From: Shinella zoogloeoides
GTDB lineage: Bacteria > Pseudomonadota > Alphaproteobacteria > Rhizobiales > Rhizobiaceae
Assembly: GCF_033705735.1 (NCBI RefSeq)
Contig: NZ_CP131131.1
Span: forward strand, 1,426,001-1,490,000
Direction of reading: 5' to 3'
DNA length: 64,000 bases
The translations under genes and the position numbers were made by a program. This document shows positions 55,228-61,061 of this stretch, piece by piece (positions within the stretch are counted from its first letter, which is position 1; the number at the start of each line of letters is the position of its first letter). The notes under the pieces are model-generated. The model did no database searches. It was not told where the DNA came from and worked only from the letters and a program-made list of their open reading frames with translations.

Positions 55228-55477
55228 GCGGATCGGCGGGAACGGCTTCGAGCCTGCCGCTTGGAGGAGGTCTCGTTTCCTGAGGCCCCATCGCGTCGTT
55301 CCCGTGCCACGGCCTCCGTTCCGGGCCTTCCCCATTCGGAGGCGAGGCAGCCCAGCCCTGACTCCAGCATCACCCCGTGGCGGCTGCGAATCTTGCGGGG
55401 CGGCACTCTCCCAGCTGCAAACATATACCTTGGTATATCCCAGAGAAGCGAACGTATAGCGTTCAATCCCCATGGAT

Positions 55478-55511: not shown

Positions 55512-55632
55512 AATCGTCAGCCGGACGGGTTCTCCCCGGCCGGAACATTGGAGAAAGACCGAACCATGCCAAGCGACAGTAGTCGAGAAAGCACGCCGTT
55601 GCGGCCGGCCGGTCGAGCCTGACATGTTCAGC

Positions 55633-55669
55633 CTCACCCCGGGGCGCCGCGACGGCCCCGCGAGGTGAG
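55633..55669 (+). promoter_or_regulatory. Hairpin burying the ribosome site of the small gene at 55672
   Basis: CTCACC (55633-55638) can pair with GGTGAG (55664-55669), and CGGGGC (55640-55645) with GCCCCG (55655-55660). The 3' arm holds the GAGGTGAG ribosome site just before the ATG at 55672. This structure would block translation unless opened by a ligand, a ribosome or a competing fold. Confidence 0.6.
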
Positions 55670-55671
55670 AC

Positions 55672-55923
55672 ATGAAGATCAAGAACCCCTTCCACTGCTG
55701 GGCCCATATCCTGGCGCGCCTGCTGCCCGGCGTTCCGGCACGGCCGCGGACACGGACCTCCCACCCGTCCGCGCCTCGGCGCGGCCCGACCGCACGCTGG
55801 CGGACGAACCCGGTATCCGGCCGGCTGGAATGCCGCTGGATCATCGCGGACGTGTCCACGCCATGCCGCGATCCGTTCGCCAAACGCGCGGCCATCCGCC
55901 ATATGCAGGACCAGTTCCCGTGA
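55672..55923 (+). CDS. Small basic protein of unknown function in the mgtA leader
   Basis: An 83-residue ORF with ribosome site GAGGTGAG five nt upstream. It starts MKIKNPFHCWAHILARLL, has an arginine/proline-rich middle and a recognisable WRTNPVSGRLECRW segment, with four Cys in total. I know no family. A longer frame in another register (from 55665) is an alternative, but its GTG start has no ribosome site. Its stop overlaps the start of a proline-rich leader frame (GTGA), which suggests translational coupling. Probably a regulatory or accessory gene of magnesium homeostasis. Confidence 0.5.
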   Translation: MKIKNPFHCWAHILARLLPGVPARPRTRTSHPSAPRRGPTARWRTNPVSGRLECRWIIADVSTPCRDPFAKRAAIRHMQDQFP

Positions 55924-55982
55924 CCGGTCCTATCCCCGTTTACCCGCGCCCGCCGCGACGAGGCCCGTCCGCCGCTCCCTGA
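55920..55982 (+). CDS. Proline-rich leader peptide upstream of mgtA (candidate)
   Basis: A 20-codon frame with GTG start overlapping the previous stop by 4 nt. Seven of 20 residues are Pro (residues 4, 6, 9, 11, 12, 16, 20), with PVYPRPPRRGP in the middle. AGGA lies about 10 nt upstream. Its last codons lie inside the base-pairing arms of the hairpins at 55963-56001. Salmonella mgtL and mgtP, which precede mgtA and mgtCBR, are also proline-rich and respond to ribosome slowing, so a similar role is inferred. The sequence is not homologous to them. Confidence 0.45.
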   Translation: MTGPIPVYPRPPRRGPSAAP

Positions 55983-56001
55983 CAGACGGGCGCGGCGGAC
56001 G
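55963..56001 (+). promoter_or_regulatory. Two mutually exclusive hairpins between leader peptide and mgtA
   Basis: Fold A pairs GCCCGTC (55963-55969) with GACGGGC (55985-55991). Fold B pairs CGTCCGCCGC (55966-55975) with GCGGCGGACG (55992-56001), 10 perfect base pairs. They share bases 55966-55969, so only one can form at a time. The leader-peptide stop at 55980-55982 lies in the loop, so ribosome position would choose the fold. No T-tract follows fold B; Rho or RNase access is possible. Confidence 0.5.
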
Positions 56002-56098
56002 CTCTCCCCAACCGACTTCGCAGAAACCGGCCGTGATCGCACCGCACGGCACGAACCCGCTCGTCCACACGCAGGCGAACGATACGAGGAGCAAGACG

Positions 56099-58893: not shown

Positions 58894-59178
58894 ATGCCCG
58901 TCGATCGTTTCATGCCACGCCCGTCATCCGTTCCTCCATGCGGCAAGAAAGACCGCTCCGCGCCGCATCCGTCATCTCGCGGGCCCGCGCGGCAGGCGGA
59001 GGCTGTCGACCGCTGGCTCTGCTGGGCCTTCGCTGCCGCCGGCGCGGTGCTGTTCAGGTCGGCCGTCCGCCTTTCCCGTCACGGCCTTCTGAACCGGCGG
59101 CAAACGCTGCGGCTGGTCCGCTGGTCGACCCATCTCCACCGCGTTGCCATACGGCTGCTGCGGCAAGGCCGATGGTAG
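58894..59178 (+). CDS. Small single-span membrane protein between mgtA and mgtC
   Basis: A 94-residue protein starting MPVDRFMPRPSSVPPCGKK, with one hydrophobic segment WLCWAFAAAGAVLFRSAVRL at residues about 46-65 and a basic C-terminus (RRQTLRLVRWSTHLHRVAIRLLRQGRW). GAGGGGAG precedes the ATG by 8 nt. It sits 80 nt after mgtA and 30 nt before mgtC. Small membrane peptides such as MgtR and MgtS modulate MgtA/MgtC in enterobacteria; this one is longer and unrelated in sequence but could act similarly. The function is inferred from position only. Confidence 0.65.
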   Translation: MPVDRFMPRPSSVPPCGKKDRSAPHPSSRGPARQAEAVDRWLCWAFAAAGAVLFRSAVRLSRHGLLNRRQTLRLVRWSTHLHRVAIRLLRQGRW

Positions 59179-59208: not shown

Positions 59209-59925
59209 ATGAAATTCCTGCAGACATTCGATCTTCTACCCTTTCTCGACACGGCGGCCGCCTTCACCGCCGCCTTCCTCCTCGGCACGCTGATCGGTGC
59301 GGAGCGCCAGTATCGGCAGCGCACGGCGGGGCTGCGCACGAACGTCCTCGTCGCGGTGGGAGCCGCCGCCTTCGTCGATCTCGCCCAGCGGATCGCCGGC
59401 ACGACGGAAGCGGTCCGGGTGATTTCCTATGTCGTCTCCGGCATCGGCTTTCTGGGCGCGGGCGTTATCATGAAGGAAGGCATGAACGTGCGCGGGCTGA
59501 ACACAGCCGCAACGCTGTGGTGTTCGGCGGCGGTCGGCGCCTGCGCCGGCACCGACATGCTTGCCGAGGCGGTGCTGCTGACCGTCTTCGTGCTTGCCGG
59601 GAACACGCTGCTCCGTCCGCTCGTCAACATGATCAACCGCATTCCCATCGACGACCGCACGACGGAAGCCACCTACGAGGTCAGCGTGATTTCGAGCCGC
59701 AAGGCCATGCCCGAAATGCGCGACCTGCTGGTGGAGCGGCTGGAACAGGCGAACTATCCGGTCAGCGATGTCGAAGTCGCCGATCGCGGAGACGATACGG
59801 TCGAGATCGTGGCAACACTCGTTTCCACCGCGGTCGATCCGCGTGAAATCGAGGCTGTCACCGCCTTTCTGGAAAGGCAGGCGCCGGTCTCCGACGCCTC
59901 CTGGGACGGAAGCACCAGGGATTGA
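59209..59925 (+). CDS. mgtC: MgtC/SapB-family membrane protein
   Basis: A 238-residue inner-membrane protein with about four or five N-terminal helices and a soluble C-terminal domain (from about residue 145). The signature RQYRQRTAGLRTNVLVAVGAAAF and SGIGFLGAGVIMKEGMNVRGLNTAATLW is typical of MgtC, which in Salmonella protects against low Mg2+ and restrains ATP synthase. The C-terminal ACT-like domain is also standard. It follows the small membrane protein by 30 nt and is followed by a sensor kinase. Confidence 0.92.
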   Translation: MKFLQTFDLLPFLDTAAAFTAAFLLGTLIGAERQYRQRTAGLRTNVLVAVGAAAFVDLAQRIAGTTEAVRVISYVVSGIGFLGAGVIMKEGMNVRGLNTAATLWCSAAVGACAGTDMLAEAVLLTVFVLAGNTLLRPLVNMINRIPIDDRTTEATYEVSVISSRKAMPEMRDLLVERLEQANYPVSDVEVADRGDDTVEIVATLVSTAVDPREIEAVTAFLERQAPVSDASWDGSTRD

Positions 59926-59990
59926 GGTCCGATACAAGCGGCGCGCGCTATGATATTCCCGAAACGAGCACAACTGGACGGCCGGCCTCA

Positions 59991-61061
59991 ATGACAAACA
60001 GCGGAAAATTCAAGCTCGAACGCAGGCTGGTGCTCACCATCGTCCTGTTGCCTGTCGCCATGGTCGTCATCTTCGTGGGCGATACCGTAACCGACTATGC
60101 GATTGCGGCAGCCGTCTTCTATACGCCCGTCATCCTCGTCGCGACACGCCTGCTTCCGGCGGGCACCGTCGTGGCTCTCGCCTTCGCCTGCGTGGCGCTG
60201 ACATTGCTGAGCTTCGCCCTCACCCATTCAGGTGCCTACGAGGTGGGGATCGTCAATACCGGCATCAGCATCGTGGCAATCGGCGTGACCACCTATCTTT
60301 CCCTGAAACTCGTGGCCGCCGAGGCAGCCGCCCATGAAAGCCGGGAACGATTGCTGCGCATGGCGCGCATCACCAGCCTCGGCGAGCTGACGGCATCGAT
60401 CGCCCACGAGGTGAACCAGCCGCTCGCAGCGATCGCCACCAGTGCCGGCGCGTGCCGGCGATGGCTGGCCCAGGAGCCTCCAGCCATCGCGAATGCGCAG
60501 CGCGCGGCGGACAGGATCGTAGAGGATGCGAACCGCGCCAGCGCGGTGATCGCGCGGGTGCGCGGCCTTGCCAGCGGCAAGGCGCCCCACAGGGAGCGGT
60601 TCGATTTCAACGCCCTGGTCCGCGAGGTCGTAGCGCTTGCGGGCGAACGCGGTGAGCGGAGCGGCATAACGGTCCGCCTCTCCCTTCAGCACGACCTGCC
60701 GGCGATCCTCGCCGACCGGGTTCAGGTCGGGCAGGTCGTCGGCAATCTCCTGCTGAACGCCGTCGAGGCGATCGAGGCGAAAACAGGCGGCGCGAAGACG
60801 CTGGAAATCGTCTCGGAGACGGAAGACGGCAATCGCATCCGCTTTTCCGTCATCGACAGCGGCGCGGGTTTTCGCCAGGGCGAGCTCGAGCACCTCTTCG
60901 ATGCCTTCTGGACCACCAAGAAGGACGGCGTCGGCCTCGGCCTGACCATCAGCCGCTCGATCATTGAGGCCAATGGCGGCCGTATCTGGGCGGAGACCGA
61001 CAAGGATGGCGGGGCGATCGCCCGGTTCAGCCTGCCGGCGGGGATGGGAGCAATCGAATGA
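59991..61061 (+). CDS. Sensor histidine kinase (FixL/TtrS-like)
   Basis: A 356-residue membrane kinase. Four N-terminal helices (about residues 12-108) have short loops and no obvious sensor domain, followed by HisKA with phosphoacceptor His139 (TASIAHEVNQPLAA) and ATPase motifs NLLLNAVEAIE, DSGAGF and GVGLGLTISRSII. The SIAHEVNQPL motif marks the FixL/DctB class. I prefer the ATG at 59991; a TTG at 59922 overlaps the mgtC stop. It forms a pair with the overlapping LuxR-type regulator. Its position next to mgtAC suggests it senses a membrane or ion cue. Confidence 0.85.
   Translation: MTNSGKFKLERRLVLTIVLLPVAMVVIFVGDTVTDYAIAAAVFYTPVILVATRLLPAGTVVALAFACVALTLLSFALTHSGAYEVGIVNTGISIVAIGVTTYLSLKLVAAEAAAHESRERLLRMARITSLGELTASIAHEVNQPLAAIATSAGACRRWLAQEPPAIANAQRAADRIVEDANRASAVIARVRGLASGKAPHRERFDFNALVREVVALAGERGERSGITVRLSLQHDLPAILADRVQVGQVVGNLLLNAVEAIEAKTGGAKTLEIVSETEDGNRIRFSVIDSGAGFRQGELEHLFDAFWTTKKDGVGLGLTISRSIIEANGGRIWAETDKDGGAIARFSLPAGMGAIE

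Follow-up and report, generated by a model that had tools for sequence, protein, structure and literature searches.

We describe a short reading frame, uORF1, followed by a hairpin, H1, that covers the ribosome site of the next gene, ORF2, in the leader of the mgtA region of Shinella zoogloeoides, and a second copy of the same arrangement in this genome before mgtE, which encodes an unrelated Mg2+ transporter. Judging from sequence comparison, the leader of the ORF2–mgtA–small ORF–mgtC row is probably governed by a translation-sensing module consisting of uORF1 and then the SD-sequestering hairpin. We also think it likely, with slightly less assurance, that this module represents a family of Mg2+-sensing leader frames, absent from the literature matches listed, with a rare-codon Asp-Ser-Ser-Arg core and an SD-locking hairpin, which serves alphaproteobacteria as a portable unit before MgtA (via ORF2), MgtE (directly) and small membrane-type proteins, which has diverged and doubled in Pseudomonas, and in which the ribosome and not a riboswitch would read Mg2+. 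The strongest features, uORF1 and H1 (55566–55671), lie mostly beyond the interval 55672–56098 covered by the original prediction, which missed both uORF1 with its rare codons and the copy before mgtE.

The window (the whole 64,000-nucleotide stretch of DNA analysed) carries, in order, ORF2, mgtA, a small ORF of 94 aa, mgtC and a histidine kinase gene, and its MgtA is 99% identical to the MgtA of S. zoogloeoides PQ7 (L030) and of another genome of the species (L009). The features to which we refer are the following.

55423..55438, strand not assigned: palindrome ATATACCTTGGTATAT, 5' of uORF1, a possible regulator or promoter site
55566..55622, + strand: uORF1, 18 codons, MPSDSSRESTPLRPAGRA; codons 4–7 are GAC AGT AGT CGA
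55611..55638, + strand: candidate alternative stem AS, in which the uORF1 tail and stop (55611–55622) pair with 55628–55638; excludes H1
55633..55669, + strand: hairpin H1, in which 55633–55638 pairs with the SD strand of ORF2 (55664–55669)
55672..55923, + strand: ORF2, 83 aa, ATG start, carrying WRTNPVSGRLECRW
55920..55982, + strand: GTG frame VTGPIPVYPRPPRRGPSAAP, 20 codons with 7 Pro, at the place where relatives have uORF3, whose motif and ATG it lacks
55966..56001, + strand: hairpin H3, 10 bp, arms 55966–55975 and 55992–56001; stop codon 55980–55982 in the loop
56099..58813, + strand: mgtA, Mg2+ P-type ATPase (TIGR01524, 1382 bits against a cut-off of 611)
58894..59178, + strand: small ORF, 94 aa, without a Pfam family
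59209..59925, + strand: mgtC (PF02308, E=3e-36)

Directly 3' of mgtC, the histidine-kinase frame (HisKA, HATPase_c; window 59922–61061) has a TTG start that overlaps the mgtC end. The palindrome ATATACCTTGGTATAT is single in the genome when up to one mismatch is allowed, and palindromes resembling it occur in 14 of 19 loci scanned, the same-species L009 among the 19; it is possibly the site of a dedicated regulator. A search of the window for Rfam cis-regulatory families (M-box and others) returned none at gathering score, and the leaders of nine related loci were likewise without a match, a single sRNA being found elsewhere in L123. Near-threshold hits to chrB-a and two miRNAs, with E values of 0.13 and above and scores under the gathering score, were dismissed.

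uORF1, H1 and ORF2 in mgtA leaders

We compared 85 mgtA loci (80 named, three added, the same-species L009 and the window), a set that contains near-duplicates in L024–L029 and in L009/L030. The mgtA leaders of L024–L029 are near-identical even though their records are labelled as Sphingomonas, Bradyrhizobium and Rhizobiales MAGs, which suggests a recently moved island or contamination.

ORF2 was followed through these loci with a profile built from 43 distinct sequences out of 46 loci; a single-sequence protein search, which gave two matches, and weak six-frame matches were left unused. The profile places ORF2 5' of mgtA in 78 of the 85 loci, 44 of which had helped to build it. Seven loci gave no detection with the profile (L024, L032, L036, L042, L044, L077 and L092): the contigs of L032 and L092 end too early for ORF2, L042 and L044 have a frame at that place without the motif, and L024 looks like a frameshifted copy. 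The recurring feature of the protein is W-x-V-x-P-x-(S/T)-G-R-L-x-x-x-W, and M1 and W43 are invariant columns in an alignment of 14 sequences. ORF2 gave no Pfam or NCBIfam match; its profile finds 136 database proteins, and the named ones among the 120 listed are hypothetical or uncharacterized. In Pseudomonas aeruginosa, gene order points to PA4826 as the equivalent of ORF2. According to the cited part of PMC11218974, expression of PA4824-26 is altered by Mg2+, and transposon insertions in PA4826 reduce fitness while a clean deletion is harmless; PA4826 would thus appear to behave like a leader gene.

Upstream of ORF2, a covariance model (A4) derived from five other loci matches the window at 55566–55677 with E=8e-20. 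A rule for uORF1, composed after frames had been seen, asks for a short frame in which Asp..Ser/Pro-Ser/Arg occurs early; 76 of the 78 ORF2-bearing loci satisfy it, whereas of 1393 control positions in these loci 20 do. Across those 76 loci the distance from the end of uORF1 to ORF2 ranges from 49 to 83 nt, and from stop to ORF2 it is 51–57 nt in 46 of them and 70–71 nt in a further 22. The codons are conserved as well as the residues: among 15 mgtA-type uORFs tabulated, two of which (L130 and L146) were found by pattern, codon 4 is GAC in all 15, codon 5 is AGT in 13, codon 6 is AGT in 14 and codon 7 is CGA in 13. AGT and CGA are scarce in the six genes of this genome that were sampled (4 of 146 Ser codons and 6 of 197 Arg codons, respectively), so uORF1 retains a short series of rare codons. 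Of the mgtA-type frames 13/15 are 18 codons long, as are 9/16 frames before mgtE or other genes, and the base preceding the stop is C in 14/15 and 16/16, respectively. A CGA after the motif, which was absent from the search pattern, is present in all 16 mgtE/other frames at codon 7, 8 or 9, while the conservation of GACAGTAG among pattern-found copies is partly by construction.

As the original prediction had it, the ribosome site of ORF2 is sequestered: its SD, GAGGTGAG, is paired inside H1 (55633–55669), and this sequestration is conserved among relatives. All 15 alphaproteobacterial mgtA leaders that we folded have a hairpin over the SD stretch between uORF1 and ORF2, as do seven of eight further leaders (five from Pseudomonas, one from Phyllobacterium, one from Mesorhizobium and one other; the exception is L072). 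In alignment A5, with 18 distinct rows, 11 of the 12 H1 pairs have compensatory changes and 87% of cells are paired, as compared with 34–53% for slid partners; the covariation score is 0.381 versus 0.169 when shuffled, and none of 500 shuffles reaches any of five measures. A5 is structure-fitted and so leans to the H1 structure, and its counts retain a 19th covariance-model match (L009 antisense, E 0.005) that we judged to be chance; a MAFFT alignment (A2) in which the 5' arm was misaligned was set aside. Cognate SD/anti-SD pairing is stronger than swapped pairing both in mgtA-type leaders (−12.3 vs −8.7 kcal/mol, n=13, permutation p=0.0002) and in mgtE-type and other leaders (−15.1 vs −12.2 kcal/mol, n=16, permutation p=0.0002). 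At the level of sequence comparison, these results establish that uORF1 is a reading frame under selection, whose motif is fixed and whose distance to ORF2 varies within narrow limits, and that H1 is a selected hairpin covering the ribosome site of ORF2.

The candidate alternative stem, AS, was derived by folding with the SD strand withheld. In mgtA-type leaders it has a cognate pairing advantage when the spacer is included (p=0.012) and a p of 0.18 for the anti-SD core alone; its mean z is only −0.8, with 14 of 36 values under −1. The mgtE-type leaders show no cognate advantage for AS (p=0.77), and we therefore discarded AS as a general switch and retained it for mgtA-type leaders only.

Copies of the module before mgtE and other genes

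The covariance model that matches the window's uORF1 and H1 also located a second copy in the window's genome (G000:C1:625465-625585, E=7e-7). This copy, L122, consists of MPSDSSSRSRTPERHIVH, a stop and then a hairpin that locks the SD of a 459-aa protein, which is MgtE (NCBIfam TIGR00400, 323 bits, cut-off 233). A further covariance-model match, L121 (E 6e-4), was judged to be chance, as uORF1 is absent there and the next gene is murB-like by eye.

The exact motif occurs in few genomes. Among 199 genomes of the family, a strict pattern was found at 13 places in 12 genomes, against three with the pattern backwards, and these 13 comprise ten mgtE genes (own copy included), two ORF2–mgtA rows (own copy included) and one ORF2 on a short contig. 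A looser pattern gave 39 places in 35 of 297 genomes of the order, against four backwards; 29 new loci were read, with G110, G183 and two G331 places left out. Frame and hairpin were both present in 12 of the 29: five precede mgtE, five a small membrane-type protein and one an ABC permease, and the last, L146, is followed by a gene that we leave unclassified. The other 17, in which the pattern is without a subsequent hairpin-locked SD, were dropped as chance.

Taken together, the module precedes mgtE in 15 genomes read, this genome included, and all 14 MgtE proteins from the other genomes pass TIGR00400 (319–353 bits, cut-off 233). The small membrane-type proteins, so classed by eye, have 67–99 aa and lie behind the module in L139, L141, L154, L156 and L157, L156 being identical to L154 over the printed stretch and folded once for both; the three that were scanned (L139, L141 and L154) gave no Pfam family. 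Since a frame and an SD-hiding hairpin are also found before a second, unrelated Mg2+ transporter, the arrangement looks like a reusable translation-based switch.

The ABC permease (PF00528) behind the module at L161:1501-3017 was an unexpected target. Copies were also seen on the opposite strand, 3' of mgtA, at L041:7340-7450 (−), a Rhizobium ASV locus, and, by model, at L032:4738-4843 (−). The opposite-strand copy in L041 precedes a short frame and what we take to be a SLOG-like gene.

Proposed mechanism and relation to known systems

The mechanism that we propose assigns the sensing step to the beginning of uORF1. With ample Mg2+, uORF1 would be completed and ribosomes would cover its tail, so that H1 forms and expression of ORF2 and the genes downstream stays low. 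With low Mg2+, ribosomes would slow down or dissociate at the Asp-Ser-Ser-Arg codons near its start, and the uncovered tail of uORF1 would then pair with the 5' arm of H1, freeing the ribosome site of ORF2. Translation of ORF2 would in turn enter a further stage directly before mgtA, formed by uORF3 and H3, which in relatives may act as a second early-abort frame (MDD/MDE..SR) with a hairpin directly after it; the final step at H3 would be either mgtA translation or transcription termination. That expression should be on when uORF1 is aborted was chosen because the genes are importers, and that ribosome behaviour at uORF1 codons 4–8 reports Mg2+ we infer from analogy with the enterobacterial leaders.

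In E. coli, drop-off at the EPDP of MgtL under low Mg2+ raises mgtA (PMC11282234), and in Salmonella mgtQ Asp2 and Glu5 are required while the single Pro codon acts only via its stem (PMC8092293); in both cases, according to the cited parts of these papers, early acidic codons lead to ribosome drop-off and to increased mgtA or mgtB. The uORF1 of the window has a single acidic residue, Asp4, within its first seven codons (that of L062 has two), so it departs from the two early acidic codons of mgtQ. This acidity is weaker than that of MgtL EPDP or of mgtQ Asp2/Glu5, and pausing at rare codons or a signal at the RNA level would therefore fit equally.

Simple translational coupling, in which a ribosome at the uORF1 stop opens H1 for ORF2 or mgtE and nothing is sensed early, strikes us as rather unlikely. 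The stop does lie close before H1 (10 nt in the window) and a cognate alternative stem is absent in mgtE-type leaders, both as coupling would have it, but the conserved part of uORF1 is codons 4–8 and not its stop-proximal end, and under coupling the importer would go down when low Mg2+ aborts uORF1.

The almost invariant choice of codons could also mean that the motif is an RNA element, such as CGAC..GUCG arms or the site of an RNA-binding protein or sRNA, with the frame incidental. These arms are invariant in 15/15 rows of alignment A6, which were found by a pattern fixing CGACAGYAG; RNAalifold on A6 is weak because the loops misalign. However, the loop lengthens by whole codons (DSSR, DSSSR, DSSHSR), the arms are broken in L033 and L113–115, the frame keeps its start, its stop and a near-constant length, and what uORF3 and the Pseudomonas versions have in common is the peptide pattern and not the arms. 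We consider this reading improbable.

A translation-sensing uORF1 followed by H1 fits a resemblance to the Salmonella mgtL/mgtQ translation-based Mg2+ switch, with other sequence, before unrelated transporters and with a presumed Mg2+ response. The claim that a logic like that of Salmonella mgtL, mgtP and mgtQ operates here with unrelated sequence is upheld to the extent that the mgtA leader, by comparison, holds selected short frames and hairpins. The closest parallel is mgtQ of the Salmonella mgtCBRU genes, likewise a short frame with the SD of a Mg2+ transporter gene locked in a stem; its early destabilising codons and its alternative stem involving the frame have candidate counterparts here in the early codons of uORF1 and in AS. 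The mgtQ frame differs in having eight codons with Asp2/Glu5 and in lying between mgtC and mgtB (PMC8092293, in the part cited), whereas the frame described here has 18 codons and a GAC AGT AGT CGA core, serves other genes and is reused before mgtE. The mgtL of E. coli and Salmonella is also an mgtA leader frame whose early abort at low Mg2+ raises expression; compared by description, it differs by its EPDP motif and Rho-dependent terminator, and its account in the cited part of PMC11282234 names neither an ORF2 nor a second module, both of which are present here. Conserved proline codons of the mgtL type are absent from the leader in the window. The mgtM/mgtP tandem attenuators of mgtCBR (PMC3641672) likewise place one leader frame behind another ahead of Mg2+ genes, and differ in sensing ATP and charged tRNA-Pro through transcription attenuation (as given in the cited part of PMC8092293). 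Among the literature matches listed, the nearest described element on the mgtE side is the mgtE motif SRC-65-1, also a structured mgtE leader with the SD in a stem; compared by description, it is a proposed riboswitch with 32 representatives confined to Thioalkalivibrio, and the cited part of PMC11109978 names no uORF. The matches listed, drawn from a search with subscription journals mostly outside its scope, contain no description of the present leader frames, and the main text of the S. meliloti small-proteome paper has zero occurrences of both mgtE and magnesium. Leader-frame control of Mg2+ transporters is thus already known; what appears to be new is the motif, the architecture and the reuse across transporter families.

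Detailed knowledge of Mg2+ sensing through translation comes from E. coli and Salmonella. A genome in which unrelated Mg2+ transporters share one module offers a direct test of the ribosome and an early motif as a general Mg2+ sensor, with GAC AGT AGT CGA in uORF1 as the codons worth changing. Such a module would also assign a leader-gene role to small "hypothetical proteins" (ORF2, and probably PA4826) and would nominate the small membrane-type protein that follows such a leader for a part in Mg2+ homeostasis.

The interval between ORF2 and mgtA

A second short frame before mgtA, uORF3, is present by a strict nucleotide rule in 35 of the 85 loci, where it starts with MD or ME in 22 and reads MN.SSSS without an early acid in 13. 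Its peptides include MDDYPSRPA in Phyllobacterium and Mesorhizobium and MDEASSRFA or MNxSSSS in Pseudomonas, and additional genomes of the same family have MDDDPSRSA or MDDDSSRW at this place. Ten loci were tried for folding and nine used (L034 was left out); H3 directly follows the uORF3 motif in eight of the nine, with very different letters, the exception being L110.

At this place the window has the 20-codon, seven-proline frame of the original prediction, which does exist (GTG, 55920–55982) and overlaps the ORF2 stop as GTGA; an early acidic residue is absent from it. It is the single frame of 15–25 codons with at least seven prolines on either strand of the whole window. Dinucleotide shuffles of 55672–56098 yield such a frame in 26 of 1000 cases and a 10-bp stem (G-U allowed) in 61 of 300, and neither feature is therefore strong alone. 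The two overlapping stems predicted before mgtA are both present, the 7-bp stem (55963–55969/55985–55991) overlapping the 10-bp H3, and they fare differently in relatives. H3 is kept in the same-family relative L101, with arms GGTCTGCCGC/GCGGCAGACC in place of CGTCCGCCGC/GCGGCGGACG: pairs 1 and 5 are changed on both sides, giving two compensatory pairs, and the stop codon is in the loop in both. The 7-bp stem has a C.A mismatch in the same-species L009 and L030 (GACAGGC for GACGGGC) and is absent from L101. The proline frame is retained in L009 and L030, but the aligned frame of L101, MTPYASGMRRSRSAAE, has one Pro and is a 16-codon ATG frame ending in the H3 loop, while the window has no ATG at the aligned place, only GTG. 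By these comparisons, conservation is limited to the place and H3 and does not extend to the prolines, the start codon or the second stem.

A proline frame that responds to proline, or to slow decoding of Pro codons, and sets mgtA by flipping between the two stems (7 bp and 10 bp) is accordingly very improbable: the frame, its GTGA coupling and both stems exist and the frame occupies the place of uORF3 in relatives, but its prolines, its start codon and the 7-bp arm are not conserved outside the species and 26 of 1000 shuffles produce a comparable frame, which leaves the proposed switch between the stems, like the proline codons as sensor, unsupported. We infer instead that the second frame of the window has decayed or turned into the proline frame while H3 was kept. 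In two leaders in which the search rule did not pick up ORF2 (L116 and L117), a very acidic uORF3-like frame, MDDPDSIDADDIGRSR, is seen by eye somewhat less than 200 nt before mgtA.
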